DNA from: Lactococcus lactis
GTDB lineage: Bacteria > Bacillota > Bacilli > Lactobacillales > Streptococcaceae
DNA: 64,000 nucleotides
NCBI RefSeq assembly: GCF_029023865.1
Contig: NZ_CP118969.1
Location: forward strand, 1,612,001 to 1,676,000
Direction: 5' to 3'
Positions 3,562 through 23,298 of the stretch are shown here, piece after piece. The translations under genes and the position numbers were made by a program. The notes beneath the pieces are model-generated. The model was given only the letters and a program-made list of their open reading frames with translations, ran no database searches and was not told the origin of the DNA. Position 1 is the stretch's first letter, and each line of letters begins with the position of its first letter.

Positions 3562-4001
3562 TCATTTGGTAGTATTATCACTGCTTTCCTTTTTTGAATA
3601 AAGTTTTCCAATTTCCTTTTTTATATTTGAAGAAGAAACTTTACCACGTGGAAAATACATAATTTTTAAATTAGGAAATTCTTCTTTTAGAAAATCAAAT
3701 TTCCCTTTCCAGTCATCACCCATCGCAAAAACATCAACATCAAACATATCAATATAAAGGCTCTTATCATCCCAAAATTGCTCTGGAACTACCAAATCCA
3801 CATAGCGAATTGATTCTAAAACGTACTTTCTTGTATCATAATCTTGAAAGAACTTATTGCCCTTTTCGCCATTAAATTCATCTGTCGAAAGCATCACAAT
3901 CAACTTACTGCCCAGATTTTTAGCATTTCGTAACATATTGACATGACTCTCATGTAAAATATCAAAAGTTCCCGCAACTAAGACTATTTTTCTTTATCCA
4001 T
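3562..4001 (-). pseudogene. tagD: Glycerol-3-phosphate cytidylyltransferase (tagD-like), frameshifted near the start
   Basis: TagD makes CDP-glycerol from CTP and glycerol-3-phosphate. The body is clear: R-K-YVLESIRYVDLVVPE, then FAMGDDWKGKFDFLKE, both hallmarks of TagD. The natural N-terminus lies in another frame. From ATG at 4001 the reading is MDKEK then TAG, while the next frame reads IVLVAGTFDILHESH and joins the body without a break. One extra A in the five-A run (T run 3987-3991 on the + strand) restores about 146 codons. The only intact frame, from ATG at 3936, lacks the nucleotide-binding GTFD and first His motif. The usual HxGH reads HESH, so both histidines remain but glycine is serine. 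This is either a real null allele or an assembly error. Confidence 0.8.
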
Positions 4002-6343: not shown

Positions 6344-7629
6344 TATTTAAACAGACTCAGGTTAACCGCATCTCCCATCGCCTTATAACCAGCATTATTT
6401 GGGTGCAGGTGATCGCCACTATCATAAATCGGATTAAGTTCTTCCGAATTACCAGAGGTCGCTAATACTTTAGCAAAATCAACTGTTCCATCAAATGCAC
6501 CACTCGTTAAAATCCAATGATTTACTTTTTGACGAACTTTATCTTTTTTCGCTGTCCAAGTAGGATACCCTTTAAAAGGGGGAAGTGTTCCAGCAATAAT
6601 CTGTACTCCCGATATATGTGCTTGATTGATTATTTTCTTATAACCCTCAATAATCTTATTAGCAGAAGCCCCAGTATTGATATCATTAATCCCTTCTAAA
6701 AGGAGAATATCCTTGAGTCCAGGGCGATTGAAAACATCTCTATCAAGCCGTGATAAGGCAGATTGCCCAAAATAAGCATTTTTTGCCACATTCGTCGGTG
6801 AATCTGTTAAAACTTGATTTCCTGTAATCCCCTCATTGACAAGACTCCATTCATTACCATTTTGCGAATTTAATCTATTCATCAGAGTATCTGTATATCT
6901 TCCCTCATTCGTAGAGTAAAAACCATCTGTAAGCGAATCTCCCAGTGCAACAATAGTTTTTGTCGCCCCTCCCTCAGAAGCTTGCACATCAATGCTATCA
7001 ATAAACCACCAACCTGGCGTATCAATCCAACCTTTTGTATCTGGAGATCTTGTTTTCTTTGTTCCTATAGTAATATAAGACGTTTCATTTGCCAACCAAT
7101 GTCCCGTTTGTTCAATTGCCTTTGGAGTGTAGAAAGTCACAGCGAGGCGTGTTCTAGCAGGAACAGTTAGCTTAATTGTGTCGCTTAGCAATTCCTTTCC
7201 TTGGGAAATCGTTGTTGTCGACTTTCCATTAAAAGTTATTGGTACACTTTGACCAATGACATTTCCTTTTGCGTCCGCAATAGCAATATAAGCATCTTCG
7301 ACTTGCAAATCAGAATCACCAAAAGCATTTGTAAAGTTGACGCGGAGGCTATCACCTGCAACGGTTGTCACGAGCATATTTCGGATGGTCCCAGTATATT
7401 TATGATTTCCCATATCAACAGGCGAAGCCGCCCAAGTAGATACCCAAGAACTAGTCTTATCATGTTTCACTGCATTGAGCGAGGTAACTTTACCAGAAGG
7501 TACTGACGAATGAATTTTTTCATAAGCCAGCAGACCAATGAGTACCACTATGACGACAAGAATCAGTCCAAACCCAAATTTAAAAATTCTTGGTTGCCGA
7601 CTTTTTCTTTTTCTTACTCTATTATTCAT
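6343..7629 (-). CDS. Membrane-anchored SGNH/GDSL hydrolase
   Basis: 428 aa. A positively charged N-terminus and one membrane segment (about residues 19-40) put the enzyme outside the cell. An N-terminal beta domain (about 60-215) precedes the SGNH core: block I ALGDSLTDGF, block II GITGNQ, block III EGINDI and block V DHLHPNNAGY with catalytic Asp/His. The family hydrolyses acyl esters, so removal or exchange of O-acetyl groups on the surface polysaccharide is the likely activity. It overlaps glf by 8 bp and the GH43 gene by 1 bp, giving a tight glf-SGNH-GH43 unit. Rhamnogalacturonan acetylesterase-like members share this layout. Confidence 0.83.
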   Translation of the reverse strand: MNNRVRKRKSRQPRIFKFGFGLILVVIVVLIGLLAYEKIHSSVPSGKVTSLNAVKHDKTSSWVSTWAASPVDMGNHKYTGTIRNMLVTTVAGDSLRVNFTNAFGDSDLQVEDAYIAIADAKGNVIGQSVPITFNGKSTTTISQGKELLSDTIKLTVPARTRLAVTFYTPKAIEQTGHWLANETSYITIGTKKTRSPDTKGWIDTPGWWFIDSIDVQASEGGATKTIVALGDSLTDGFYSTNEGRYTDTLMNRLNSQNGNEWSLVNEGITGNQVLTDSPTNVAKNAYFGQSALSRLDRDVFNRPGLKDILLLEGINDINTGASANKIIEGYKKIINQAHISGVQIIAGTLPPFKGYPTWTAKKDKVRQKVNHWILTSGAFDGTVDFAKVLATSGNSEELNPIYDSGDHLHPNNAGYKAMGDAVNLSLFK

Positions 7630-8752
7630 TGAACTCTTTCTCCACTGCCTTTAGTGCTGCACCAAATACTTGGTCCATATCATAATATTGATAATTTCCA
7701 AGACGACCACCAAAGATAACATTTTTAAGATTATTTGATTCTTTGCGATATTTTTTGAAAAGCTCTGAGTTCTTTTCATCATTTACTGGATAATAGGCTT
7801 CTTTACTTCTATCCCAATCCTGTGGAAATTCTTTACTGATGATTGATTTTCCATCATCTGCATGATTGTCAAAATGTCGCCATTCCATGACACGGGTATA
7901 AGGCGTTTCAGCATCCGTATAGTTAATGACTGCATTACCTTGAACATTGTCAGACTCATGTACTTCACTCTCAAAACGGACAGAACGATATTCCAACTCA
8001 CCATATTTATAGTCAAAGAATGCGTCAATCATCCCTGTATAAATAGTTTTGGGAAATTCTGACAGATAAGTTTCTTTATTCGCCATGAAGTCGGTATTGA
8101 CTTGAACATCTATCAAATCTGACGCAAGCAATTTGTCAAAAATCGCAGTGTATCCGTCAACTGGCACACCTTGATAGCGATGATTGAAATAATTATTATC
8201 AAAGGTATAACGCACAGGCAATCGCCCAATGATAAAGGCAGGGAGTTCTGTTGCCTTGCGTCCCCATTGTTTCTCTGTGTAGCCTTTGATGAGTTTGCTA
8301 TAAATATCCGTCCCAATCAATGAAATCGCTTGTTCTTCCAAATTTTTTGGTGCGCCTGAAATCCCAGCAGTAACTTTTTGCTCCGCAATTTTTGCAGCTG
8401 CCTCCCCAGGTGTTTTAACGCCCCACATCTGATAAAAAGTGTTCATATTGAAAGGTAAATTATAGAGCTCACCTTTGTAGTTAGCGACGACTTGATTGAT
8501 GTAACCATTAAATTCAGTAAATTGATTAACATAATCCCAAACCTCTTTGTTATCGGTATGAAAGATATGTGCACCGAAATCATGGACATTAATACCATTT
8601 TCCTTGTGCGTGTACATATTTCCACCAATGTGCGCACGTTTTTCAATAATGAGCGAACGTTTACCACGTTTGGCAGCTTCATAAGCAAAGATTGAGCCAT
8701 AAGGACCGCTCCCGACGATAAGATAATCATAATTTTTTGTATTATATTTCAT
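7622..8752 (-). CDS. glf: UDP-galactopyranose mutase
   Basis: 376 aa, normal length for Glf. N-terminal FAD-binding Rossmann motif VGSGPYGSIFAYEAAKRGK (about residues 13-31), then IIEKRAHIGGNMYTH and the HDFGAHIFHTD block. In the middle are NLPFNMNTFYQMWG and GYTEKQWG, and near the C-terminus GGRLGNYQYYDMDQV. All are characteristic of bacterial Glf, a flavoenzyme converting UDP-galactopyranose to UDP-galactofuranose in the cytoplasm. A GlfT2-like transferase is encoded in the same cluster (14984-17389), so the polymer almost certainly contains galactofuranose. The start ATG has a weak GGAG-type site. Confidence 0.96.
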   Translation of the reverse strand: MKYNTKNYDYLIVGSGPYGSIFAYEAAKRGKRSLIIEKRAHIGGNMYTHKENGINVHDFGAHIFHTDNKEVWDYVNQFTEFNGYINQVVANYKGELYNLPFNMNTFYQMWGVKTPGEAAAKIAEQKVTAGISGAPKNLEEQAISLIGTDIYSKLIKGYTEKQWGRKATELPAFIIGRLPVRYTFDNNYFNHRYQGVPVDGYTAIFDKLLASDLIDVQVNTDFMANKETYLSEFPKTIYTGMIDAFFDYKYGELEYRSVRFESEVHESDNVQGNAVINYTDAETPYTRVMEWRHFDNHADDGKSIISKEFPQDWDRSKEAYYPVNDEKNSELFKKYRKESNNLKNVIFGGRLGNYQYYDMDQVFGAALKAVEKEFNE

Positions 8753-8771: not shown

Positions 8772-9194
8772 TTATTTACGCGTAAAGATTACAATTTTTC
8801 CTTTATATTTTGTTGTATCAAGTCGTGTAAGTGAGTAGTTAGTATCTTTTTTTACCACAGCATAACTTGCTGCTATTTTCCCGTTTTGCATAAATTGTAT
8901 TTTATTATTACTTGCTGACTTCAATATGTAAGTACGCTTGGGATTATTATCAGCCACCGCCGTGTTACCGTCAATTTTTAACGTTTTCCACTCCCATGGC
9001 GCATTAACAGTGTACTCCCCTGAAGCTATCATTGTCTGGACTACTTGTCTCGTTTGAGTTGTCTGTACTTTATCTCTGGCAGTGTTCGGATGTAGCTTTC
9101 TTACAAAATAGATGCTCCCTCCAATAACTAAAGCTAAAACAACGATAATAATCGGGATAAATATTTTTTTACTATTTTTATTTTTTCTTTGCAT
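8772..9194 (-). CDS. Small membrane-anchored extracellular protein, unknown
   Basis: 140 aa. A Lys/Arg-rich N-terminus and one membrane helix (about residues 11-30) are followed by an external domain of about 105 residues with strand-rich text (GEYTVNAPWEWKTLKIDGN, RTYILKSASNNKIQFM, IAASYAVVKKDTNYSL). I recognise no family. It sits between glf and a glycosyltransferase gene in the same direction with gaps of about 20 bp, so it belongs to the cluster transcript. It could be a small modulator or binding protein for the exported polymer; that is positional inference only. Confidence 0.6.
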   Translation of the reverse strand: MQRKNKNSKKIFIPIIIVVLALVIGGSIYFVRKLHPNTARDKVQTTQTRQVVQTMIASGEYTVNAPWEWKTLKIDGNTAVADNNPKRTYILKSASNNKIQFMQNGKIAASYAVVKKDTNYSLTRLDTTKYKGKIVIFTRK

Positions 9195-9219: not shown

Positions 9220-10377
9220 TTATTTTAAATTTTTAAGTTGCTCTTGTAACTGTGAAATAGCTTTTTTGTATTTTCCTAGCAGCACCTGATTTCTAAAAGC
9301 TCTTTTACTAAACACTTGCATTTCAATCAAGTTTAGAACTTCTGAAACTGTAAATTCTCCAAATTCAAACGATCGAATTGATTTGATGATTTTTGGTAAA
9401 ACATTTGAAATAGAAAAATTTTCAATCATTTCCTTGCGTTTACTCGTATGAAAATCCACGGCGGACTGATAGCCTGTGAATAATTCTTCTACAATCTCCT
9501 TACCACTTTTTTTCTTTCTTGGAGTAAATGCCCACTCGTTCCCCCTTTTTCTTCCTGAAAAATTATTTTGACGATTTTCATCAAAATTTTCCTCTGTCAG
9601 ATAACCATCTCCAGAGAAATGATCATAAACATAAACAGGAATCCCTTCACATAAATAATATTGAACAGTTTTTCCTATTGTAATAACCACATCAAACTGT
9701 GCCAAAAATTCCGGTTCAATCAACTTATAATCATTTTTCAACCATCCTAATTGAGTGATAAGAACACCACTTTCTTCTAGTATTTCTTTGGCTTCATCAA
9801 GTTCTTTTGGGAGATGGTTACTTACCATTAAAATTCTTTTTAAGTTTTTTCGGCGTTCATGGATGTAAATTCCGAATTTTACAGGGGCAGGATTTTCAAA
9901 AAGTTCTGGGTTAAGTTTTTCATTGAAAAATGGTTTTTGAACACCTAAAGCCTCTTTAGAAACAAATAGATTCATACTTGCTAACCTTTCTTCCAAAAAA
10001 AGGGATATAGGAAATTCGTCTGGTGCTATAAATTTCAAAGACGAGAGATGTGCAAATAGAAAAACTGGGCTTGTTTTCCCTTTGAGTCCTCTTAAATTAT
10101 CCATAATAAATCGAGGTAAGCACTGTGAATTACTCCAAATATAATCAAAATCTTGTGCTTTAAAATTTGAATGCTCAATAAATTTTATTCCTTTACTCTG
10201 GGCAATCTTTTCCATAGGACTACCAATGTAGTAAGAATAAAGCCTAACTTCTGCCCCTTCATCTTGTAAATATTCAGCAAGTTCAAGAGAAAGAATTGTT
10301 GACCCAATTATTTCTGAAAACATAGGCTGACAAATCAACCATTTTTGACCCTTAAAGTCACTAGTAGTATCTTCCAT
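9220..10377 (-). CDS. Glycosyltransferase, GT-B fold (GT4-like)
   Basis: 385 aa. The start reads GQKWLICQPMFSEIIGSTILSLELAEYLQDEGAEVRLYS in overlapping pieces, the usual first Rossmann fold of GT-B enzymes with an ELAEYL helix. In the second domain, ILMVSNHLPKELDEAKEIL and VVITIGKTVQYYLCEGIPVYVYDHFSGDGYL give the donor-binding region; ethe expected E-x7-E is only partly met. A lysine-rich segment (GRKRGNEWAFTPRKKKSGKE) and a coiled C-terminus follow. Probably adds one sugar to the repeat unit in the cytoplasm. Lies 18 bp after the epimerase gene. Sugar specificity is unknown. Confidence 0.68.
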   Translation of the reverse strand: MEDTTSDFKGQKWLICQPMFSEIIGSTILSLELAEYLQDEGAEVRLYSYYIGSPMEKIAQSKGIKFIEHSNFKAQDFDYIWSNSQCLPRFIMDNLRGLKGKTSPVFLFAHLSSLKFIAPDEFPISLFLEERLASMNLFVSKEALGVQKPFFNEKLNPELFENPAPVKFGIYIHERRKNLKRILMVSNHLPKELDEAKEILEESGVLITQLGWLKNDYKLIEPEFLAQFDVVITIGKTVQYYLCEGIPVYVYDHFSGDGYLTEENFDENRQNNFSGRKRGNEWAFTPRKKKSGKEIVEELFTGYQSAVDFHTSKRKEMIENFSISNVLPKIIKSIRSFEFGEFTVSEVLNLIEMQVFSKRAFRNQVLLGKYKKAISQLQEQLKNLK

Positions 10378-10395: not shown

Positions 10396-11862
10396 CTACT
10401 TTTTTAATTGCATCTCTTTAATGAAAAAGCTAGTTTGAATTGTAAAATCCGTTGCCGTCAAAGAAAAATCTGTTAAATTGTCAGTAGCAGCTACAAACTC
10501 AATATCAAACTGATTAGCTCCAACCTTTAATTGAAGGGGTGTGAATCTTTGTATACCTATCCCATAATGATGAACAAATGGTGTAAAAGTTGTTGCTACA
10601 TCCGAATCAATCTTTAATGATAAAGTGTATATTTTCCCTTTTTTAAGATAATCTGTTGGATCAAGTTCAAAATTTATCCATCGGTTATCCATAATTGGCC
10701 CATCACAAGGGCGTGAAGTTCGAGTAAGTTTAACGCCCTCTTCAAATTGTTTGGCACTCCAATAGTCATTAATCACTCGTATACGAAATTGTTCCATCGT
10801 GATTTTTTCTCTGAACAATGCATTTTTTCGAATACTTTCAAATTGTATTCTCATCGTTTCTGGAATAAAAGCCAAATCAGTCAAACTTCCCGTAAGAGCA
10901 TCGAACTTTGCTTGATATACTGCAGCATTGCCGTTGAATTGAAAATTTTTAATATTGGAAGCTTGAAAAGCTTCTGTCAATCCTGATTTCAAATCATGAA
11001 AATCATCATTTGATAATCCTGTCACGCTTAGAATTTTCTCGTTTAAAAATTTTTTTCTGCGGAAACGATCGACAATCCTTCCGTCTTGATAGTCAATGCT
11101 TTCAATATACTCTTCGTCAGAAACAAGATCAATTTTCATATCAAAGACCTGATTGTAAACATCAGCCATTTGTCCCCAACTCATCGTTTCTGTTGTTGTA
11201 TGAAAAGCTTGAGCGAACGCTCTTTTTTTCCCAATCAATCTTTCAAGCATGAGCGCAACATCTCGACCATATGCAATATTATTTTCGATATTCCACATGC
11301 TTCGAGGTAAAGCTGTCAAAACTCCACGAACAGCACGAACCACGTCGAAGTTATCTCCCGCAAACCATTGAATTCTATTTTTTCCATAAGTCATAGCGGG
11401 TCTTATGATTGTCCAATTTTTTAGTTCTGATTTTCGCAAGATATTCTCTTGAAAACCTTTATTAATACCATATCTATCCACACGATACTCTGGATATTTA
11501 TCCAAAACATCAACTTTCAAGGCAGTATCCTCAGTCAGAATACCATCTTCATGTGCGTAAGCCCGATAGGAAGAAAAGTAAAAATACTGTGTTGTCAAAG
11601 AAAGAAGTTTTTGATACACCTTCTCAAATTCTTGATTGGAATACATCATAAAATCAAAAATAGCATCAAATTTTTCATTTTCAACTTCTGAAAAAAGCCA
11701 GTTTGTATTTTTAGCGTTTCCAATCAAATATTTCAAATTTTGATGATAACTATCACGTTGACTTCTGGACGTAATCCAAACTTCATAATTTTTATCAAGG
11801 AGTAGCGGGGTCAGGTACATACCCATAGCCCCTGTACCACCCATTAACAGGATTTTTTTCAT
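10396..11862 (-). CDS. NAD-dependent epimerase/dehydratase with C-terminal beta domain
   Basis: 488 aa. The N-terminal 300 residues form an extended short-chain dehydrogenase: cofactor loop GGTGAMGMYL (residues 8-17), DFMMYS, YFSSYRAYA and a YGINKG catalytic Tyr-x3-Lys near residue 132. The reaction is probably modification of a nucleotide sugar. A C-terminal region from about residue 355 (SRPCDGPIMDNRWINFELD, YTLSLKIDSDV) looks like a beta-sandwich, resembling the C-terminal extension of the DUF6270-like protein at 4053. The start overlaps the upstream fusion gene by 4 bp (ATGA type), suggesting the two enzymes act together. Confidence 0.78.
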   Translation of the reverse strand: MKKILLMGGTGAMGMYLTPLLLDKNYEVWITSRSQRDSYHQNLKYLIGNAKNTNWLFSEVENEKFDAIFDFMMYSNQEFEKVYQKLLSLTTQYFYFSSYRAYAHEDGILTEDTALKVDVLDKYPEYRVDRYGINKGFQENILRKSELKNWTIIRPAMTYGKNRIQWFAGDNFDVVRAVRGVLTALPRSMWNIENNIAYGRDVALMLERLIGKKRAFAQAFHTTTETMSWGQMADVYNQVFDMKIDLVSDEEYIESIDYQDGRIVDRFRRKKFLNEKILSVTGLSNDDFHDLKSGLTEAFQASNIKNFQFNGNAAVYQAKFDALTGSLTDLAFIPETMRIQFESIRKNALFREKITMEQFRIRVINDYWSAKQFEEGVKLTRTSRPCDGPIMDNRWINFELDPTDYLKKGKIYTLSLKIDSDVATTFTPFVHHYGIGIQRFTPLQLKVGANQFDIEFVAATDNLTDFSLTATDFTIQTSFFIKEMQLKK

Positions 11863-14800
11863 AGAAAGACCTCAAAGAAAATAGGCCCCTCATCATTCGA
11901 TGTAAAACGTTTTAACCCTTCATCAAATCCTTCTTTATCATGTGAAGCAATGTAGTCAAAGCCAAGTGATTTAACCCAGCCTTCAGCAACAGTATTGTGT
12001 GTAGCCGCTGAACCTTTTGCTTCATAGTGACGAAGTAGTTGTGAACCACTGTTGTTGACCATCATGATTCTGATGTTTTTCTTTAATTTTTTATTCCAAA
12101 GTGAATTCATATCGTAGAAGAAACTAACATCACCAATCAATAAAAATTTAAGTCTTTCTGAAGTATCCGCTGCAACTTGTCCCATATAAGCAGAAGCTGA
12201 ACCATCAATTCCATTTGTTCCCATATTTAAGAAAACTTCTAAATCTTTGCCAGGAACAGTATTTTCAGAATGTGTTAACATAAATGCTGAACCAACTCCA
12301 ATATGGAATAATGAACCTTCAGGCATCTTTTCCATTAATTGTTGCGTTGCATAATGATTATTATAATTTTCATGAATAGTGGCCGGATATTTTTTGACTT
12401 CTTCTTTCCAAGAATTCAAATATTGCTCATCATTTATATGGTTTTCAGCTTTATTAGAAAAATATTCAAAGAACCAATCTGGGTTGGTTTCCAAAATTGA
12501 AGTCAAATGGAAAAATAAATCTTTGAATTTTCCATCCGCAGCGATTCTCCAATGTCTTACACTCATTGGTGCACCTCGAAGTTTAAAGTTAATTGGATGA
12601 TTCATAACATTTTTACCACCGACAGAAAGCACAATGTCTGGAAGGAGTTTTTCATTAAATTGTCTTTGTGTCATTCGTTGCAAAGTATTAAACGGATAAA
12701 CTACTTTATCACCTTGAATATTTGACAACCAATCTGCTAAGATCACAACATTATAACGTGAGGCAAACTTTTCAATATTTGATTTTTGCGTGTTTGTAGG
12801 TTTGTAATCTTGACCATAGACCAACAAAATCTTGCGAGTTTTCAATAACGTTTGAACATAATCTTCCCAACGCGCCAAACTGTCTTGTTTTGTAACCCGC
12901 AAAACATGCTTCATTCTTGGTAATTCATAAGAGGCATGAATCGGTGCCATATTTGGTAAAATATCAAATGACAAGTTAATGTGAATCGGTCCCGTTCCAT
13001 TGTGACGTGCTTCCAAGATTGCTTCCGAAATCAAGCGATTTGTATACCAATCTGTTCGTCCTTCTTTCGTTACAGGTAGGTTCACTGATTTTTTAATCAT
13101 TGGTTCAAAAATATTCGCTTGCTCAATTGTTTGATCTTCCCCTATTTCATGAAACTCGGGGTAGCGGTCTGCTGTAATAACAATCAGTGGCAAATCCATA
13201 TAATAAGCTTCGGTAACTGCTGGTGCCAGATTTGATACCGCCGTTCCGCTCGTTACCATAATCACAACGGGTTCTTTTGTCTTATTTGCTAATCCAAGCG
13301 CATAATATCCTGCACTGCGTTCATCAATCACATAATGAATATCAAAAAAATCTCTATGATTCTCAAATGCACGAACCAAAACAACATCACGTCCACCAGG
13401 AGCCATCACAACGTGCTTGATACCATAAGCTTTCAAACGTGAAAGCAAAATTTTTGTTTTATAAAAATCAGGATTTGAATTATCCCGTTTGATAGCTGCC
13501 GGAACACTTTCTAAGACATGATGAACTGCTTTATTTGGAATAAATTCACCAACAATACGAAAATCATCTGCACGATATCCTTCATTCAGATTATCCCAAA
13601 CGGTTGTTTCTTGGTTACTTTCTCCATAAAAAATCAAGCGATTCTCTTCAAGTTTCCAGCTTTTTTCGTTTATTGGATTAGTCCCTGATAACGTTCCATC
13701 GGCATTAAACCCTACATCTTGGCGAAGAGTTTCACCATGTTGCCCTTGGCGATAAAATACAAATTTATTGGTCAAAAGTACATTACGCAATGAAAGTTTA
13801 ACCGATTTCAAATTATCAAAATTACGTTTCATTGTCGCACCTGGTAAAATTTTATCAGTAGCTTTATCAACAGATAGTGCCTTTTCTAACCAATTATAAG
13901 ATTTTTCACGTTCAATTTTAAGATTTGCATTTCCATCTGTAAAGTCAATTACTTTCGAAACATTTATATTTGCATTAATGTCTTCAGCTGTATTCTCAGG
14001 ATAAATGCGACGTGTATCTCCAAGTTTGAATAAGGTCATCAAACTTGCAAAACGATTGGCTCCGCGAATTGTGTTGTAGAAAACAGAAAATGGTTTTTGA
14101 GCAATGTATGAGAAGCATGAACCATGGAAACTGTCAGTTACAACATATTCGGCATTTTTATATGCATATAAAAAATTTTCAGGACGAATATCATCAATCA
14201 CCTCATAACGTTCAGAATTAAAAATTGAACGTGCATAATTAATGCGGGGACCATTTGCATCTGTGAAAACCACAATTTTATTAAAACCAAGTTTATCAGC
14301 TACTGCTTCAATGTTGCGTTTTTTATCTTCATCAGGATCTAAGATAAATGCTAACATATATTCTTCTTCAAAGTTGATCGTGGCTTCATCAGCCAATTTC
14401 CAATATTCCTTAGGATCAATAAGGAAAACAGGGTCAACCACTTGTGGTGCATCAATATCTAAATTTTCTTTAAAATATGAAATTCCATCCGATTCTCTCA
14501 TTGAGACCCAATCAAAGCGACTCAAATTTTGACGTTCAACTTGCTCAAAATCTTCTCCAAAATGCTCAGAAGAAAATTTTGGACGACTAAAGTTTCCGAT
14601 TGAAGTTCCATAAGCAATGCGTTTTTTATCATCCGCTGTAAAGTTCAAAAATAAATCATCATTGATACGACCTATGTACGGATTCCACAATTGATCCGAA
14701 CCTACAACAAAGGTATCTGCTAATTCATTATATTTCTCATTTTCTAAGAAATGTTCTTGTTCAGTATAAGCGTAATTTTGACGACGAGCAAATGTCATTC

Positions 14801-14980
14801 CTGGTGCATCATTAGGCAATTTATGACGTTTGGATACCCCATACTTTCATTAACCATCAAAGTTGAATAATCCAAGTTTTCAATTGCTTTTTTCAATGCA
14901 TAATAAGTCAACATTGAACCATAATTACTATTGTGCCACCACCCTAATATCGCAACATCATATTTTTTATTATTTTTCAT
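11859..14980 (-). pseudogene. Polysaccharide pyruvyltransferase fused to MenD-like thiamine-diphosphate enzyme, frameshifted
   Basis: A G-run error near the start splits one gene of about 1040 codons. The first 60 codons (ATG at 14980: DVAILGWWHNSNYGSMLTYYALKK) end at TGA, and the other frame carries on from KRHKLPNDAPG. Adding one G to the run after ATG (C run at about 14837-14840, + strand) rejoins them. The N-terminal third is a polysaccharide pyruvyltransferase: FVVGSDQLWN, YGTSIGNF, VTDSFHGSCFSYI. A linker (DGTLSGTNPINEKSW) leads to about 560 residues like MenD: DERSAGYYALGLA with catalytic Glu, TSGTAVSN, and the diphosphate motif GDVSFFYDMNSLW to MMVNNSG. The fusion suggests one protein that processes and attaches a 2-oxo acid-derived group to the polymer. 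Without the repair, the downstream frame could start at TTG 14819 and keep the TPP half intact. Confidence 0.8.
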
Positions 14981-14983
14981 GTT

Positions 14984-17389
14984 TTATCCTTTTTGTTGTT
15001 CCAAGTAATCATTCCAGAAATCTTGCGAATGGAATGTTTTTGCATATTGACGATATTGTTCTGTTATTTCTTTTCCAGATTTGCTAAATTTAGTTGAGAT
15101 TTCTTGATAACGTTTTTTAACCGACTCATATTTTTGCTGATTACGTTCACGAATCACATATTTTTTATTGTATGTGTCATAAACAACGACCCGTTTACGC
15201 ATAAATTGCTTCCCTGGATTTTCAAGTATTTCTTGATTAACGATAGCAACATTTTCCAGTTTATCGTCGTCAGCATTAAAAGCAATTTCTGGCAAACCAT
15301 GCCCATTATCCGTTTTGATAAACAAATCTAAATCTGCTGGATTTAATAGCCAATAGTCATCAACTGTGTGAAGATTACATTTGATTTCTTTAGGGATATC
15401 ATCTGAAAAGATTTCATTTTTCTTTCCTTCACGTATTATTGGTTCAATTCCTTTAAGGCTGAATAGATGTTCGGGTCCTTTAAGGAAATCATCCAAGGCA
15501 TCCAAGACTTGATCTGCTGCACCATAGTTAAACATACGGATTTCTTTTTTATACAATTCAATAGATGTTTCAAAAAAATCAACTTCTTTGATAAAGTCAT
15601 TTACAGCTTGGTCAATGATTGTATTGCGAACTACAAGATAATTTTCAAGTGCTTTTGATTTTTTAGTATAAAATGGCAAGTGCCAAACCGCTAATCCATT
15701 CAACGTGATAATTTTTGCTTTATTACGTATCGAAAATTCTACATCGTCACCACGATAAAAGATTGGTAATGACATTGAATTTTCGTGAATATATTTTATC
15801 GGAACAGTACAATACCACCAAGCTCCATATTCATTATCAACTGGATACTCGATATCATTTCTCATCACGTGATGTAAATTACGAAGGTCATAATTATCTT
15901 TTACTGGCATATAAACTGTATTTTTATTTTTTGTAATAAATCCTGTATCTTCATATTGAGTGATTCCATCAAGGCTATCCAACATTGCTCCCTCAATGAA
16001 ATAATCTTTGTATTCTTCCTTAACAAGTCTCAGAAGCGCAAAGACCCGTTTGAACGATTCGGGTAATACTTCAATATCATCATCCATGAAAATCACATGC
16101 GTTGGATGATATTCTCCATTTTTCTGAAGATTAAGGGTTTCAATCATACCACGAGAGAAGCCTCCAGCACCACCAACATTTGGATTTCCATAAACCCGAA
16201 TGAATTCGTTATTAATATGCTCGGCATCTAATGTCCGTCCATTGTCTACAACGTTGATGAACAAATGCCCTTCTCCGAGCTGGTTCAATCCTGTTGATTT
16301 ATTTTCAAAATCAATGATTTTTTCTTTGATATTGCTAAGATTTTTTAGGATATATTTTTCTTTTTGAAAAGTTGTCGTATTGATGACGATATCAACGGGA
16401 CTAGTTTTAGACACACTTGTGTACCATCCAGCATCATGAATTTCTGCATTACCAATTACTGTAAATCCAATCATCGCATTTTTGATGTTTGTTGTTACAG
16501 GTAGTATAAGTTCTGTGACTTTATCAAAATTAAAATTGTATCGTGTGATTGAATTAGTAATTCGAGAATTTCCAGATTGAAAATTCATGACATTGCGAGC
16601 AAACACATCATCAACATCTGATTGATGAAGTTCTTCAAATACCGACTCAATCCCCTTTTCTTGTATATTCTTATCATTGTAGGTCAAATAATTTTGAATC
16701 ACTTCAAGTTCAAATTGTCCTTTTACAGAAAGTTTCAAGAAAAATTCATTTGCCGTTGTATATTTAGTCCATTTAGACAATGAAAGGCTATTAATATAAG
16801 TATTAAAATCACTATATCCGTCAACAATATTGAAATTTCCAAAGCTTACGACTTCATCACCACGATAGAACAATTCACGTTTTTGCCCTTTTTCATCTGA
16901 CGACTGCGGAAAAACAATATTTTGAATACGAAATTCATTCTTAATTTCTGTTAAATATTCGCTTTCAGTTGCTTTAATTTTGATTTTTTCATTATTATCT
17001 TTGACCGCCTTGTCAAACTTATATACCATTCGTGATTGTTTTATTAACTCAAACTTCACATCATCCCATTTTGTTGACTGACCTTTAATAAAATCCAAAT
17101 TGCCAGATGATAAATCAAACTTACTAGTTACATTTCCCTTAATATCTGAAATTTCAAGTGTCGTTTGATAAACGTTCCATGAGTATTCATTATCATCTTG
17201 ATATCCTGTGATTTTGAAATCTTCACCCAACGTAAAATCATTCGTAAAAACAGATTGATTAGGTTTACCAAATGAAAAACGTGTCCCAATAAGTTGGCTA
17301 CTCAGCTCTTTGTTGTATACTTTTGTTTTTGTATTTGGTGATTTCACCGTTCTTTTTACTACTTTTTTGATTCGATTTGGAACTTTCAT
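14984..17389 (-). CDS. GlfT2-like galactofuranosyltransferase
   Basis: 801 aa. An N-terminal beta-rich domain (about 40-310) precedes a GT-A domain with a GNPNVGGAGGFSRGM donor loop (401-415) and the metal-binding HVIFMDDDIEV (DDD at 436-438), then EYGAWWYCTVPIKYI and FYRGDDVEFSIR, with a His-Leu-Pro-Phe (WHLPFY) site. This order is that of mycobacterial GlfT2, which polymerises galactofuranose from UDP-Galf. The glf gene downstream supplies the donor. A C-terminal helical domain follows (from about 600). It lies 4 bp upstream of the pyruvyltransferase fusion and 2 bp after its upstream neighbour. Whether it adds one or many Galf units cannot be told. Confidence 0.87.
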   Translation of the reverse strand: MKVPNRIKKVVKRTVKSPNTKTKVYNKELSSQLIGTRFSFGKPNQSVFTNDFTLGEDFKITGYQDDNEYSWNVYQTTLEISDIKGNVTSKFDLSSGNLDFIKGQSTKWDDVKFELIKQSRMVYKFDKAVKDNNEKIKIKATESEYLTEIKNEFRIQNIVFPQSSDEKGQKRELFYRGDEVVSFGNFNIVDGYSDFNTYINSLSLSKWTKYTTANEFFLKLSVKGQFELEVIQNYLTYNDKNIQEKGIESVFEELHQSDVDDVFARNVMNFQSGNSRITNSITRYNFNFDKVTELILPVTTNIKNAMIGFTVIGNAEIHDAGWYTSVSKTSPVDIVINTTTFQKEKYILKNLSNIKEKIIDFENKSTGLNQLGEGHLFINVVDNGRTLDAEHINNEFIRVYGNPNVGGAGGFSRGMIETLNLQKNGEYHPTHVIFMDDDIEVLPESFKRVFALLRLVKEEYKDYFIEGAMLDSLDGITQYEDTGFITKNKNTVYMPVKDNYDLRNLHHVMRNDIEYPVDNEYGAWWYCTVPIKYIHENSMSLPIFYRGDDVEFSIRNKAKIITLNGLAVWHLPFYTKKSKALENYLVVRNTIIDQAVNDFIKEVDFFETSIELYKKEIRMFNYGAADQVLDALDDFLKGPEHLFSLKGIEPIIREGKKNEIFSDDIPKEIKCNLHTVDDYWLLNPADLDLFIKTDNGHGLPEIAFNADDDKLENVAIVNQEILENPGKQFMRKRVVVYDTYNKKYVIRERNQQKYESVKKRYQEISTKFSKSGKEITEQYRQYAKTFHSQDFWNDYLEQQKG

Positions 17390-17390
17390 T

Positions 17391-18689
17391 TTACTTTTTT
17401 TTTATTATTTTTATTGATTTTATGGTGAGTTTTTCGTTACTTTTCCAAAATAATGCATTGAATCCTAAATATTGGACTTGTTTTTTAGGAGAAAATTTGA
17501 TGTTCTTGTCAACTTTGATCTCCTCAAATATGATATTATCATGAAAATAAACAAATTGTTTCTGTAATTCGTCAGTTTGAATGTTGATTTTATACTGATC
17601 ATTCACATTCATTGGACTTTTGAGCATAAAATTTAACAATACATTCTCTTCTCCAATTTGATTTGAGTTTCTTTGAATTATAAGTCCTTCACAGGTCAAA
17701 TGCAAATCGAAATAAGCTGAATTCCATGGAAGGAAGGCATCCCAATCATCCGTATTGATCAAGTATTGATTTTGTTCCACTATGATGTCCGTTTCATAAA
17801 GCATTTCGTTTATAATTGACAATTGCAAGGGGATTGTTTTTCCGATAACAATCGCATGGCTAAGAAATAAATCGGTCATGTAAGGATTGCTCATTTGCAG
17901 ATTCATCACAGTCACTTTTGACAAGTTAAGTTGCTTAATAAAAGGATATGTGATGAATGCTGAATCTGACGTCAAGATTTTGATTTTATTGGGTTTCAGA
18001 GCAGTATTTTCCAATAATCGATTGATTTTGGGAGCAAAGTTATAATCTACTAAGTCAAACATATGTTGCATATCTTTAACTTCTACCCAAGCGCGGCGAT
18101 CAATCACTGGGTCTGCAGCAAGGACCTTATAATTACCTAAAAGCCCGTGATATAATGCACCTGTTGCCCCACGTGAATTTCCATAACAAACGATATTATC
18201 TGTTATAATGTCGTGCTCCTGTGCGATTTTTTTTATGAGTTGTTGAATTTTCTCTTCAAAATCAGGGAAATTTTTGGTGCTTTGGTAATAGGATCCTGAA
18301 ATTAAATTACTATCCGCAATCCTTAAAATATAAGTATTTTTCGCAACTGAACCTGATAATGAATCCCAATGTGAATTTCCAAAAGTTCTCAATTTGGTAT
18401 CTGTTGCATTCATCTTATCAGCCGGCATGAAGAACACAATCAACTTATTAGTCAAATATTGTTCGTTTTCCAATGGTTTTTCGAGAAAATAATGAACTCC
18501 ATTAAATTTTGACATACCTAAATCAGCTACTTCCCAGCTTTGTACGCTGTATTTGTGATTTTTGTAACCAACTATAGTTTTGTTATCCAAAGCTATTTTT
18601 TTTAACGCTTCGTAATAGTCCCAATTTTCAAGAAAGGTATCCATGCTTTTTAAATCTTTTTCTGGTAAAACTTGAAAATATTCAGTCAT
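17391..18689 (-). CDS. Alpha/beta-hydrolase-fold polysaccharide biosynthesis protein (XcbB/CpsF- or Asp2-like)
   Basis: 432 aa from ATG at 18689, chosen because AAAGGG lies 8 nt upstream; an alternative GTG is at 18698. The centre holds a nucleophile elbow IVCYGNSRGATGALYHGLLG (about 175-195) with Ser in GNSRG, the layout of serine hydrolases and of Asp2/XcbB-type proteins in glycosylation and capsule loci. The C-terminal 120 residues are beta-rich. No signal peptide, so it acts in the cytoplasm. It overlaps the preceding gene by 8 bp. Possible roles are acetyl transfer or a scaffold for the transferases. The family name is tentative; the fold is more secure. Confidence 0.62.
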   Translation of the reverse strand: MTEYFQVLPEKDLKSMDTFLENWDYYEALKKIALDNKTIVGYKNHKYSVQSWEVADLGMSKFNGVHYFLEKPLENEQYLTNKLIVFFMPADKMNATDTKLRTFGNSHWDSLSGSVAKNTYILRIADSNLISGSYYQSTKNFPDFEEKIQQLIKKIAQEHDIITDNIVCYGNSRGATGALYHGLLGNYKVLAADPVIDRRAWVEVKDMQHMFDLVDYNFAPKINRLLENTALKPNKIKILTSDSAFITYPFIKQLNLSKVTVMNLQMSNPYMTDLFLSHAIVIGKTIPLQLSIINEMLYETDIIVEQNQYLINTDDWDAFLPWNSAYFDLHLTCEGLIIQRNSNQIGEENVLLNFMLKSPMNVNDQYKINIQTDELQKQFVYFHDNIIFEEIKVDKNIKFSPKKQVQYLGFNALFWKSNEKLTIKSIKIIKKK

Positions 18690-19668
18690 TATCTTCACCC
18701 TTTTTCAAAAAATTACGATACGTACTTTCATTAATCCACGATTCTTCAAGTACTTTATAGCTAGATTTTAACCAGCTATTTTCGACAGTATTGAAGAATT
18801 TTTTACTCTCATATTCACCATTTAAAAGTGGAAATTTTGCTTTCGATTGTACATGAAGCTTTCGATTGATTAAAATTCCTGCATTTGATGTGAAGGTGAA
18901 TTCGATAAACTGTTCTGGAATCAACCTTAGGCCACTATAAAATGGATAGAATTGCTTGTATAATTTGAAACTCGTCCGTTTCACCAGTATATCGTAAGTT
19001 CCGATTTCAAGTCCAAAAACATAATCTTCTTCAAATTTCAAGCGTTCAAATCTATCAAATTTTGCAACGATTTCTGCTTTATTTTTACCAAATGTGATAG
19101 AAGTATCAGTAGCTGAAATACGTTGGATTTTCAAATTATTCATATTGACCAAAAATGGTTGAATTTTTTCAGAAATATTCAGCTGATTTTCATCCCATTC
19201 AATGGTATATGTCACAAAAAGTTCTTGATTGATTCTCGTCAAATCTGATAATTCAACATTTAGCGGTAATCGTCGGTCATAAGTATCCAATATGAATTTT
19301 GGTACAAATTTGATACCTAAACTTCCAAAATCATCCAAGATTCCAATTTTATGCAAGTCATTTTTTTTGATTTTTCCTAAATCATAAAAGCGTTCAAATC
19401 GCAACTTTTCTTCATGATTTTTCACTATAATGTGCTGGATGATTTCACCTTTTTTACCCGTCAAGTGGTAAATCAAGTAAGCTTCAAAATCTTTTTCAAA
19501 TACTTTGATTATAAGATTTCTTCCATCAAATTGAATATTTTTATCTTGAATTTCTACATTTTCAAAATAAAGTTTTTCAAGCTCTACAGGATTTTCAAAT
19601 TCAATAGAGAGTGATTCAGGAGAGAATTTGAAAGATTTAACATATAAAATATCAATTATTTTTTTCAT
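18682..19668 (-). CDS. Uncharacterised beta-rich protein of polysaccharide cluster
   Basis: 328 aa, no signal peptide or membrane segment. Strand-rich throughout (SLSIEFENPVELEKLYFENV, LIIKVFEKDFEAYLIYHL, FVLGLEIGTYDILVKR-type segments). The pattern resembles the beta-sandwich tail of the 726-aa glycosyltransferase encoded just upstream, so this may be a detached copy of that accessory domain. I recognise no named family. It is squeezed between genes with a 1 bp gap upstream and an 8 bp overlap downstream, so it is translated with them. Confidence 0.55.
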   Translation of the reverse strand: MKKIIDILYVKSFKFSPESLSIEFENPVELEKLYFENVEIQDKNIQFDGRNLIIKVFEKDFEAYLIYHLTGKKGEIIQHIIVKNHEEKLRFERFYDLGKIKKNDLHKIGILDDFGSLGIKFVPKFILDTYDRRLPLNVELSDLTRINQELFVTYTIEWDENQLNISEKIQPFLVNMNNLKIQRISATDTSITFGKNKAEIVAKFDRFERLKFEEDYVFGLEIGTYDILVKRTSFKLYKQFYPFYSGLRLIPEQFIEFTFTSNAGILINRKLHVQSKAKFPLLNGEYESKKFFNTVENSWLKSSYKVLEESWINESTYRNFLKKGEDND

Positions 19669-19669
19669 G

Positions 19670-21850
19670 TTAACCCCTCCTCAAAATATTTCCAATTAAC
19701 TTAGTTTTTGGTATTTCTTTTTTACTTAAATTTGATGTAAAAGTGACATATTCTGGTTTTTCAGTTATGAAATCACCACTTTCAGTTATGAATCTCGGAG
19801 TTCCTTTTTGGTCAAATGTCATATTTTTAATGAGAATTGTTTTTCCTCGAAGTAAATGTTTTTTGCGTGAATTCTTTTCGAATTCAGTCTTTCCGTAGGA
19901 ATAGATATTTTTCAAAACCACTACTTCAATTGGCTCTGTAATTCGCTCAAATGCCGAACTTTCAAAGTAGACAGAACCTGCCGAGGTTGTAATCAGAACT
20001 TCATTATGCTGATTGAACCAAAGGTTTGTTACTGTTAAAACCCTTCCTTTTTTGAGAAAAAGTGCTGTACTCGATGCTTCATTATAAATTTTAACAGGCT
20101 TTATCAGTCGGTAAATCCCAGCTTTGAAGGCATATTTCGAAGCTTTTTTTTGGTCAAAATTTCTTGGAAATTGAATCATTCCGATTTTGTAATTGTACTC
20201 AGATATTTTGGTTTGATTTTCTAAAATAAAATCAAAGCTCCCATCATTAGTTAAGTTAGTTGATACCTTCACAAACTTACCTAAATTTTTTTCATCAAAA
20301 GTTTTAAATGATAAGATTTGTTGATCATTTATAACAGGCTTATAAAGATTTAAAACACCATTTTGATCCGTAATCAAGGTTTCAGAACCACAATAAATTT
20401 GCAGATGGTCAATTGCAATCAGATATTCCAAGTGGTCTTCCAAAATCACATAAGCTGTATAAATTCCAGACTTGAACTTGTCGTAATCAGTACGTGAAAT
20501 TTTTACTTTATAACGATCATTCGAGACATGCTCAGCATTAACTCTGAAAATATGATTCAATGCTTCAGGGTTTCGAAATTCAATATATTTCAATGGTTTC
20601 GGTATAAAATAGTCAAAAGAAATCACTATTTGTTTATCATCAACAGAAGCTTCTACTCCTTTAATTACTGGATAATTGACCTTTGGTAAACTCTTATCAC
20701 CTGATACAAAATAATAGTATTTCTCAACTTTAATCAACGATTTATACTGTTTAGGTAAAGTATTCCAAGCTACAAATTTCAACAACTTTTCATATTCTTC
20801 AGTTTGCAAGAAATCCCAAATATAATCGTAAACATCCAAACTAAAATATTCAGATGGATTAAAATCAAGATTTCTCAAATAATTATCCAACATATTTTTT
20901 AACTGCTCGATACTTCCCAAATTCAATCCAAAAGCCGTATCCCACCGTAATGTAAAATCAATTAAAATCCATTCTAATCGTCGTGTGAAAAACTTTTGAA
21001 AATCCTCAGAATGTTCATATTTGGATAACAGATAAGAAAGGTTTCGTAACCATGATCTTAAGAAGGTCTCATTGATGTTTTTGGAAAGCGAAATATTGTC
21101 ATCATCACGATTGACATACGTTGTAATATCTGTGATTTGTGAAATTCGCCCAGAAATTTTAAGGATTTGATAGAAAAAATCCACATCATCTGCGACACGC
21201 TGATCAATAAAATGTAAATTTTGTACTTTGATTAGCTCATTTCGAATCATAATTCCTTGTGGTCCGAGCCAATTATAAAAATCATATGGTAAATCTAAAA
21301 TTGGACGATGAATCGCTTTTTTCTCAATATAAGCCGGCGACATGAGCTCAATTTTTCCATTTTTACTTCGAACAACACCGCCAAAAGCAATATTATCACC
21401 AGACTTTTCCAATACGTTATACATATTTTCAAGTCCATCCAACGCATACCAATCATCCGCATCAAGAACCACTAAATATTTTCCGCGTGCATGCAATAAA
21501 CCAATATTACGTGGACCATGTGCACCACCAGTATTTTTATCCAGCAGATAAATCTCTATATTGGGATATTCTATAATGAAAGGTTTGATTTTAGATAGTG
21601 AGTCATCGGTCGAACGGTCATCGCAAAATAATATTTGTAGATGATTAATACCAATCGTCTGGTTTACTAATGAATCCATCATCCTTTCCAAATAATCTGA
21701 ATTATTGAAGTTTGCGATAATAACCGAAATTTTTGGCTCTGGATTGATTTTTTCTGAGCATTCAATCGTCACAGATGGTAAGTTTTTCTTCCAAGAAAAA
21801 TCTGTTAAATCATAGTTAAATTGCTGAAATTCTTCTGTCGGATTGCTCAT
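19670..21850 (-). CDS. GT2 family glycosyltransferase with beta-rich C-terminal extension
   Basis: 726 aa. GT-A domain at residues 40-260: ISVIIANFNNSDYLERMM, FCDDRSTDDS, TGGAHGPRNIGL, and the metal site LDADDWY (DADD at 130-133). LGPQGIMIR and VADDVDFFYQ complete the acceptor side. A helical region follows, and from about 400 a 320-residue beta-rich extension with repeated strands (FVKVSTNLTNDGSFDFILEN) that may bind polymer. It is a clear paralogue of the next upstream gene, probably from a tandem duplication; the extra C-terminal part is the main difference. It overlaps that gene by 4 bp. Probable role is building the repeat unit in the cytoplasm; sugar unknown. Confidence 0.85.
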   Translation of the reverse strand: MSNPTEEFQQFNYDLTDFSWKKNLPSVTIECSEKINPEPKISVIIANFNNSDYLERMMDSLVNQTIGINHLQILFCDDRSTDDSLSKIKPFIIEYPNIEIYLLDKNTGGAHGPRNIGLLHARGKYLVVLDADDWYALDGLENMYNVLEKSGDNIAFGGVVRSKNGKIELMSPAYIEKKAIHRPILDLPYDFYNWLGPQGIMIRNELIKVQNLHFIDQRVADDVDFFYQILKISGRISQITDITTYVNRDDDNISLSKNINETFLRSWLRNLSYLLSKYEHSEDFQKFFTRRLEWILIDFTLRWDTAFGLNLGSIEQLKNMLDNYLRNLDFNPSEYFSLDVYDYIWDFLQTEEYEKLLKFVAWNTLPKQYKSLIKVEKYYYFVSGDKSLPKVNYPVIKGVEASVDDKQIVISFDYFIPKPLKYIEFRNPEALNHIFRVNAEHVSNDRYKVKISRTDYDKFKSGIYTAYVILEDHLEYLIAIDHLQIYCGSETLITDQNGVLNLYKPVINDQQILSFKTFDEKNLGKFVKVSTNLTNDGSFDFILENQTKISEYNYKIGMIQFPRNFDQKKASKYAFKAGIYRLIKPVKIYNEASSTALFLKKGRVLTVTNLWFNQHNEVLITTSAGSVYFESSAFERITEPIEVVVLKNIYSYGKTEFEKNSRKKHLLRGKTILIKNMTFDQKGTPRFITESGDFITEKPEYVTFTSNLSKKEIPKTKLIGNILRRG

Positions 21851-23298
21851 AATTTCCTTTCTATCGCTTTTTGTTCAACGATTGTATCGTGATATTTATT
21901 AGTAATCACGTGCAAAGTTTTATTTTTTATCAAATCCTTGCGGTCAAATTTGACCAAATAATTCCCATTTTTTTCAAAAATTTCAAAAGGTAAAATCACA
22001 TCAAAAGGATCGTCAATCGCATGAAATTCGAACCCGTTTAAACTCTCATTACTGAAAAACTCAATTTCAAACGTTACCGTTTCATCGTCTTTAACTACCT
22101 GTTTAACAAAAGATTTAACATTAATTAGTATTTTTGGCATAAACGGAAAAACAAAATAATACAAATTATCAATTTTTTTCTGTATTTTCAAACTCTCACG
22201 ATGCGAATGCCAGTTAACAAACAGATATAAATGAAGCAATCTATTTTTCATCAAATCTGACCATGCAATTTTGCGGGCTTCAGCGCGGAAATAATTTGAT
22301 GGATAAAATCTTAAGTTAGGTAAGTAATCACCCACCATTTTTTTAAAATTTTTTAATCTACTCAATCCAAATTTATAACCGATATTTCGCCTTAATCCAA
22401 AATCTAATACTAGCCAATCTAATCGTCGCGCCAAAAATAATTCTTTTGACCTATCATTTGGTATAGTTTCATTGATAAATGCCAAAGCACGCAACCATGA
22501 AATCATGAAACTTTCGTTAATATTTTTACTCAAACTCTCATTATCAGATGCTCTATTGAGGTAAGTCGTTTTTTCAGGCAACTGTGAAATCGTTCTAGAT
22601 AGGCGAAGTGCTTGATAGAAAAAGGTCACATCATCTGCAACACGTTGATTGACAAAATGAAGATTATTTTCTAATACTAGTTTGGTTCGAAGCATAATGC
22701 CTTGCGGACCCAAAAATTCGTAAAATTCATAAGGCAAATCCTGTATTTCTCGATTTTTCTGCAAACCGTCCATATAATAAGCCTTACTTTTTGCCGATAC
22801 GTTTTTGTCATTGACCTGCACGATGCCACCAACTGCAAAATTATCCTGCGAATCATCCATCAAATTTGATAGATTTTCAAGCGCTGTCAATCCATACCAA
22901 TCATCAGCATCTAAAATCACAACATATTCACCACGAATATATTGTAATCCCAAATTTCTCGGTCCATGAGCACCACCCGTATTTTCATCAAATTGATAAT
23001 ATTCAATGCTAGAATACTTTTCCAAATAATCTAAAATTATTTCTGAGGAATTATCCGTTGATTTATCATCCACAAACAAAATTTGCAGCTTTTCAAGACC
23101 AATTGTCTGATAAATCAAAGAATCTAACATTTTTGATAAATATGGTCCATTGTTATAATTGGCAATAACGACAGAAACTTTAGGTTTTTTTACTATACGT
23201 TCAGACGTTTCCAACGTAAAGTTAGGAAGTTCGGTTTTCCATTTATCATCATTAAAATAATTAAAGGACGTAAATTCTTCTTTTAAATTTTTATACAT
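21847..23298 (-). CDS. GT2 family glycosyltransferase
   Basis: 483 aa. The catalytic domain matches its 726-aa neighbour motif for motif: VSVVIANYNNGPYLSKM, FVDDKSTDNS, TGGAHGPRNLGLQ, VILDADDWYG, FLGPQGIMLR and VADDVTFFYQ. The C-terminal 120 residues form a short beta region (VTFEIEFFSNESLNGFEF) instead of the long extension of the paralogue. The start overlaps the exporter permease gene by 8 bp. Together the two enzymes probably add related sugars in successive steps. No membrane helix, so it acts on lipid-linked substrate from the cytoplasm. Confidence 0.85.
   Translation of the reverse strand: MYKNLKEEFTSFNYFNDDKWKTELPNFTLETSERIVKKPKVSVVIANYNNGPYLSKMLDSLIYQTIGLEKLQILFVDDKSTDNSSEIILDYLEKYSSIEYYQFDENTGGAHGPRNLGLQYIRGEYVVILDADDWYGLTALENLSNLMDDSQDNFAVGGIVQVNDKNVSAKSKAYYMDGLQKNREIQDLPYEFYEFLGPQGIMLRTKLVLENNLHFVNQRVADDVTFFYQALRLSRTISQLPEKTTYLNRASDNESLSKNINESFMISWLRALAFINETIPNDRSKELFLARRLDWLVLDFGLRRNIGYKFGLSRLKNFKKMVGDYLPNLRFYPSNYFRAEARKIAWSDLMKNRLLHLYLFVNWHSHRESLKIQKKIDNLYYFVFPFMPKILINVKSFVKQVVKDDETVTFEIEFFSNESLNGFEFHAIDDPFDVILPFEIFEKNGNYLVKFDRKDLIKNKTLHVITNKYHDTIVEQKAIERKL

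Follow-up and report, generated by a model that had tools for sequence, protein, structure and literature searches.

Bacterial surface sugars can carry lactyl and dihydroxypentanoyl ethers, and to our knowledge the route to such glycan ethers has been established only for muramic acid. On the way to UDP-MurNAc, MurA forms an enolpyruvyl ether from phosphoenolpyruvate (PEP), and MurB then puts a hydride on the CH2 of this ether, which is its one established substrate type. In yersiniose branching, the thiamine diphosphate (ThDP, also TPP) carboligase YerE performs a 1,2-addition to a keto nucleotide sugar, after which the short-chain dehydrogenase/reductase (SDR) YerF reduces the new ketone. 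For the ThDP enzyme MenD of Bacillus subtilis, Arg32 and Arg106 (33 and 107 in E. coli numbering, used below) recognise isochorismate, Arg428 (413) mainly binds 2-oxoglutarate, and Arg409 (395) binds both substrates (PMC2914249). The characterised PF04230 pyruvyltransferases CsaB and Pvg1p form ketals and carry an R-L-H motif at the PEP site (R306-H308 and R337-H339, respectively; PMC10435577). The present study concerns a gene of Lactococcus lactis that joins a PF04230 pyruvyltransferase to a MenD-like enzyme in one reading frame; it lies in a wall-polymer cluster within a window of 64,000 nucleotides (contig NZ_CP118969.1, positions 1,612,001 to 1,676,000), to which all coordinates below refer unless a contig or locus is named. 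The genome measures 2.59 Mb, and its contig C3 is similar to plasmids of Lactococcus (84-94%).

The fusion probably attaches a PEP-derived piece to a wall sugar and then lengthens it by two carbons. Together with an overlapping SDR gene, it would constitute a three-step module building a branched hydroxy-acid ether on a wall-polymer sugar, probably near galactofuranose (Galf), a reading that sequence comparisons lead us to rate slightly above even. In this module, the PF04230 domain would form an enol ether, and not a ketal, by moving an enolpyruvyl group from PEP onto a single hydroxyl of the sugar. The MenD-like domain would use ThDP to decarboxylate a small 2-oxo acid, pyruvate being the likeliest, and the acyl anion would join the CH2 of the enolpyruvyl group in a Stetter-type 1,4-addition, as in MenD, to yield a 2-O-glycosyl-4-oxopentanoate. 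Reduction of the ketone by the SDR with NAD(P)H would then give the 2-ether of 2,4-dihydroxypentanoic acid. The comparisons establish the architecture and recurrence of the fusion, its residue changes, the separate menaquinone MenD and the exchange of partners, whereas the three chemical steps are proposals. The product predicted with pyruvate as donor equals an ether that occurs on mannose in the O-antigen of Providencia alcalifaciens O31, for which only the structure was met with (PMC10609480). Literature searches, which covered open-licence papers, returned neither a gene assignment for lactyl or dihydroxypentanoic ethers nor a paper on a pyruvyltransferase-ThDP enzyme fusion, in agreement with a first-pass annotation of this DNA that knew of no described activity for the pairing. 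We likewise know of no biosynthesis for the dihydroxypentanoic ether decoration.

Architecture and recurrence of the fusion

A single minus-strand frame (11859-14819) encodes 986 amino acids comprising a PF04230 pyruvyltransferase and a complete MenD-like ThDP enzyme, and domain searches with Pfam and TIGR00173 bear out the first-pass description of both enzymes in one frame. The parts of the gene and the adjoining reductase gene are:

14795..14980, minus strand: start of the pyruvyltransferase domain, 61 amino acids in another frame, assigned by homology to L. insecticola N-termini
13830..14819, minus strand: PF04230 half, GT-B fold, with TDSFHG at the PEP site (Pfam; AlphaFold and Foldseek on the L. 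insecticola homologue)
13461..13829, minus strand: linker of about 120 amino acids with a small beta-rich stretch, found too in an unfused L. insecticola paralogue
11859..13460, minus strand: MenD-like ThDP carboligase half (TIGR00173; residue alignment)
10396..11862, minus strand: extended SDR with a C-terminal domain, predicted ketone reductase (PF01370, motifs, homologues adjoining MenD-like genes)

PF04230 matches residues 33-249 (E 2.2e-24; 87.3 bits versus a gathering score of 25.3) and TPP_enzyme_N residues 456-553 (E 1.1e-19), while the menD model TIGR00173 covers residues 456-881 with 277.4 bits against a cut-off of 244.2 (E 2.5e-82); the MenD-like half as a whole spans about residues 454-986. 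The alignment contains both the catalytic Glu (DERSAG; Glu55) and the GD...NN diphosphate motif, which the earlier description of an intact-looking TPP half had named. For the pyruvyltransferase half of the L. insecticola homologue, AlphaFold gave a mean confidence (pLDDT) of 93, and the top Foldseek matches were of GT-B type. A model of the whole fusion, based on five sequences, reached a pLDDT of 52 and was set aside as poor, and a sequence search of the pyruvyltransferase half against the PDB produced nothing useful. The 61 N-terminal residues encoded in the other frame, which imply one frame change in the L. lactis copy, match the N-termini of L. insecticola homologues at 69% and 57% identity.

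The survey of other genomes that had been proposed at first pass recovered uninterrupted fusions when contigs were scanned with an alignment of the pyruvyltransferase, a full-protein scan having given none. L. insecticola encodes a 1,038-residue homologue, 61% identical over its full length; the cluster around it resembles that of L. lactis in content and has the SDR gene and glf (UDP-galactopyranose mutase) downstream and the unfused pyruvyltransferase paralogue upstream. The same arrangement surrounds a 943-residue fusion in Enterococcus sp. BWB1-3, and further fusions are encoded by an uncultured Ruminiclostridium (two, of 921 and 929 residues) and Pseudoruminococcus massiliensis (one, of 925 residues). 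These uninterrupted homologues rule out an accident confined to one strain.

The MenD-like half is distinct from the menaquinone enzyme. The L. lactis strain has a canonical menF-D-H-B-E-C operon elsewhere (near C1:1.83 Mb), whose MenD scores 469.5 bits to TIGR00173 and shares about 24% identity with the MenD-like half of the fusion; the TPP half is thus not the strain's only menaquinone MenD, a possibility raised at first pass. In a tree, 17 MenD-like proteins from surface-polymer settings form one clade (support 100/99) apart from six menaquinone MenDs, and menB is absent from five genomes that carry the module (L. insecticola, Enterococcus sp. BWB1-3, G558, G619 and G620). On these three grounds a menaquinone role for the fusion was rejected. 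As a negative control, the MenD-like profile met only two MenDs in 369 genomes of the Halomonas class, both of ordinary menaquinone type in men contexts, and reached no Providencia-type cluster there.

Residues at the active site point to altered substrates. The acceptor-binding Arg33 and Arg107 are kept in L. lactis and throughout the fusion-like group (11 of 11), as are Gln118, the catalytic Glu and the ThDP motif. Arg413 is replaced in 15 of the 17 MenD-like proteins and Arg395 in five of the six pyruvyltransferase fusions, including that of L. lactis, where the two positions are Met/Met and Lys292 and Phe475 are replaced as well; the Lys292/Arg293 columns shift slightly between a smaller and a larger alignment, with Lys292 missing from every MenD-like protein in both. 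The fusion therefore resembles MenD in fold family, conserved catalytic and acceptor residues and the Stetter-type chemistry to be expected of it, but differs in these four replacements, in its PF04230 partner and in lying in a wall-polymer cluster outside any men context. Since residues binding 2-oxoglutarate are lost and acceptor arginines are kept, a donor smaller than 2-oxoglutarate and an acceptor that is still carboxylated are predicted for the fusion-like proteins, and the replacements suggest pyruvate as the donor. The substituent postulated at first pass, derived from an enolpyruvyl group or a 2-oxo acid, is supported and can be specified more closely, whereas 2-oxoglutarate is probably not its source.

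Gene neighbourhoods and interchangeable partners

A pyruvyltransferase is fused or close by in all 16 readable neighbourhoods of MenD-like genes (a further locus, in G698, ends at a contig end), and the same holds in 15 of them for an NAD(P)-dependent carbonyl reductase. The arrangements are:

L. lactis, L. insecticola, Enterococcus, Ruminiclostridium (two), Pseudoruminococcus: MenD-like gene fused to the pyruvyltransferase
R. albus, halves separate: pyruvyltransferase, flippase, TPP enzyme, SDR
G766, halves separate: pyruvyltransferase, flippase, TPP enzyme, SDR
G954, halves separate: pyruvyltransferase, flippase, TPP enzyme, SDR
G524, halves separate: pyruvyltransferase, TPP enzyme, SDR
G483, halves separate: pyruvyltransferase, TPP enzyme, classical SDR
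G558, halves separate: pyruvyltransferase, TPP enzyme, no reductase seen
G713, halves separate: pyruvyltransferase, SDR, TPP enzyme
G939, halves separate: SDR, TPP enzyme, pyruvyltransferase
L104, halves separate: aldo-keto reductase adjoining the TPP enzyme, pyruvyltransferase about 3 kb upstream

The halves are thus encoded separately in some genomes, a situation that the first-pass annotation had considered with the genes unlinked, yet in R. albus and in G524, G483, G558, G713, G766, G954 and G939 they stand side by side in one cluster, which favours a joint function. Four unrelated reductase folds adjoin MenD-like genes, namely extended SDR, classical SDR, aldo-keto reductase and zinc alcohol dehydrogenase, the last beside the Ruminiclostridium and Pseudoruminococcus fusions. 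Such exchange of one fold for another would be expected if the step reduces a ketone that the ThDP enzyme has produced. The L. lactis reductase gene overlaps the 3' end of the fusion by 4 bp, as noted at first pass, and its product has the extended-SDR motifs GGTGAMG (Gly-rich NAD(P) motif) and YGINK (YxxxK); the label "epimerase" that it had received is better read as ketone reductase. In G963 (L171:1711-7365), an aldo-keto reductase/MenD-like fusion of 1,046 residues lies beside an FrhB-pyruvyltransferase fusion, so that the same functions are joined differently.

The pyruvyltransferase has alternative partners as well. Among the 80 nearest pyruvyltransferase loci, 52 encode a fused partner (FrhB in 35, a nitroreductase in 12, a MenD-like enzyme in four and MurB in one), another 16 have FrhB or a nitroreductase within 2.5 kb, and 12 have no partner; in total, 68 of the 80 have one of these four partners fused or within that distance. 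Fusions to MurB are found in Paracoccus aestuarii (pAES7) and in Demequina, which has a second, ordinary murB. Their MurB halves are 56% identical and keep the FAD domain, MurB_C and the catalytic residues R159/S229/E325. A MurB-family gene also accompanies the pyruvyltransferase on plasmids of Levilactobacillus brevis (pyruvyltransferase-flippase-murB) and Novosphingobium, with residue changes at 229 or 325 (Thr at 229 in L. brevis); in L. brevis it fills the slot that the MenD-like/SDR pair occupies in R. albus and G954. Because MurB, a sister partner, reduces enolpyruvyl ethers, the product of this pyruvyltransferase clade is read as an O-enolpyruvyl sugar, which we infer to be the simplest common substrate for MurB, nitroreductase, FrhB and MenD-like partners. 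In the sister fusions, the flavoprotein (MurB, nitroreductase or FrhB) would turn the enolpyruvyl ether into a lactyl (1-carboxyethyl) ether by simple reduction.

At the PEP site, the clade has Ser in 41 of 41 pyruvyltransferases (alignment A4, position 286), with S-F-H in L. lactis; the E. coli WcaK site is TRLH. The fusion shares PF04230, the GT-B fold and the invariant His at the PEP-binding position with the ketal-forming enzymes CsaB, Pvg1p and WcaK, but differs from them in having S-F-H in place of R-L-H, redox or ThDP partners and a proposed enolpyruvyl product. Ser in place of the PEP-contacting Arg is possibly a sequence marker of product type. The capsules of Klebsiella K22, K37 and K66 are ones that we take to carry 1-carboxyethyl (lactyl) ethers. 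Types K8, K22, K37 and K66 have pyruvyltransferase genes and lack pyruvate ketal, and in the 79 cps loci nitroreductases occur twice and an F420-hydrogenase gene once (PMC4616057). The ketal-free types hint independently at another pyruvyltransferase product.

Several further observations concern this family. In Demequina NBRC 110053 (L057:9857-14223), an open reading frame that combines the same linker domain with a nitroreductase directly follows the pyruvyltransferase-MurB gene, placing alternative flavin partners next to each other. Very large pyruvyltransferase proteins of 1,335-1,673 residues (L065:9989-15010, L091:8891-13888 and L099:1-4008) carry FrhB, hexapeptide and two SDR domains, or a citrate-lyase-ligase domain at the C-terminus together with an epimerase domain, and possibly represent entire pathways on one chain. 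The Enterococcus phage Efs 1-1-1 (OR846590.1, 113019-114095) encodes a pyruvyltransferase 42% identical to the clade. E. coli genomes, when searched for an FrhB-pyruvyltransferase pair of the K. aerogenes kind, gave none.

Weighing the proposed chemistry

Extended to the whole clade, the proposal is that S-x-H members of PF04230 make enolpyruvyl ethers on surface glycans and that the fused partner decides the final product, flavoproteins giving lactyl ethers and a MenD-like Stetter enzyme with a ketoreductase giving 2,4-dihydroxypentanoic acid ethers. We advance this generalisation tentatively, as falling a little short of an even chance. If true, it would supply a general route, so far unassigned, by which two kinds of acid ether on glycans arise, extend glycan chemistry to C-C bonds made on an enolpyruvyl ether, account for FrhB and nitroreductase genes in capsule clusters, and change the reading of much of a family that present annotation takes to be ketal-forming. 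It makes predictions for strains whose polymer structure is known. Ketal and enol ether raise the mass of a sugar by an equal amount (+70.005) and would look alike to mass spectrometry used by itself.

Among described systems, the proposed chemistry is like that of MurA and MurB in forming an enolpyruvyl ether from PEP and then directing a nucleophile to its CH2, with MurB itself present in sister fusions; unlike there, the transferase is a GT-B protein of PF04230 and a ThDP acyl anion would take the place of hydride as the nucleophile. The order of carboligase and then SDR is that of YerE and YerF, whereas the addition proposed for the fusion is 1,4 and has an enolpyruvyl ether as acceptor. 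That likeness also underlies a rival explanation in which each half works on a separate molecule, the PF04230 domain forming an ordinary pyruvate ketal and the MenD-like enzyme with its SDR making a branched nucleotide sugar. The characterised PF04230 enzymes are ketal-forming (PMC10435577), and Klebsiella K12 contains 5,6-pyruvyl-galactofuranose (PMC4616057). We nevertheless regard this explanation as rather unlikely: it leaves unexplained the fusion itself, the constant company of pyruvyltransferase and MenD-like genes and the fusion of related pyruvyltransferases to MurB, nitroreductase or FrhB; a Pfam scan of 781-30353 turned up neither a sugar 4,6-dehydratase nor CDP-sugar genes; and MenD-type Stetter specificity with retained acceptor arginines points to an unsaturated carboxylate acceptor.

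The three-step module might also operate with 2-oxoglutarate or another 2-oxo acid as donor, giving a longer acid such as a succinyl-extended ether. MenD itself uses 2-oxoglutarate, and two of the 17 MenD-like proteins, from Ruminiclostridium (L069) and G963, keep both arginines that bind it, but the replacement of Arg413 in L. lactis and most relatives, joined by that of Arg395 in most fusions, makes this variant improbable, somewhat more so than separate action of the halves. Far less credible is that the MenD-like half serves menaquinone synthesis as a second enzyme, or that the fusion is an artefact of cluster decay: the TIGR00173 score above cut-off and the frame change could be cited for it, and against it stand the complete men operon elsewhere, the module genomes without menB, the separate clade and the occurrence of the fusion without interruption in four or more other genomes.

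Several points tell against the favoured three-step module. The known PF04230 enzymes give ketals, and an enolpyruvyl product would be new to the family. The pyruvyltransferase-MurB fusion is rare, being absent, Demequina excepted, from the 297 genomes sampled from its class. The donor may vary across the clade, given the two proteins with both 2-oxoglutarate arginines, and R. albus-type MenD-like proteins have lost the acceptor arginines too. Six of the loci were found through the pyruvyltransferase, so that its link to MenD-like genes is independent only for the ten found by the MenD-like profile, where it is present in nine and the tenth ends at a contig end. The L. lactis copy, finally, may be inactive or mis-sequenced.

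The surrounding wall-polymer cluster

The first-pass assignment of the region to a Galf/glycerol-phosphate polymer is confirmed by its gene content, all on the minus strand:

781-1938 and 1886-3073: two CDP-glycerol glycerophosphotransferases (PF04464)
3562-3936: TagD-like cytidylyltransferase (PF01467)
7622..8752: UDP-galactopyranose mutase, glf (PF03275, E 2e-81)
14984..17389: GlfT2-like galactofuranosyltransferase (weak Pfam GlfT2 matches; like genes adjoin sister fusions)
17391..18698: XcbB/CpsF family capsule protein (NF033892, E 4.7e-84)
19670-21850 and 21847-23298: two GT2 glycosyltransferases (domain matches)
23291-24100: TagG-like permease of a wall-teichoic-type ABC exporter (matching pair in L. 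insecticola and Enterococcus)
24103-25530: TagH-like ATPase of this exporter, with a LysM domain (Pfam ABC_tran, LysM)

The glf genes beside the fusions of L. insecticola and Enterococcus are 80-81% identical to that of L. lactis. Because glf and GlfT2-like genes are conserved next to fusions, Galf is suggested as the acceptor sugar. Like the fusion, the TagD-like gene has a frame change near its start, GTFDILHESH being encoded just after a stop with the start codon in another frame; these two interrupted genes reflect sequencing indels or cluster decay. Three cluster proteins (8772-9194, 9220-10377 and 18682-19668) have no Pfam match, and the first and last of them have homologues in the L. 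insecticola cluster.

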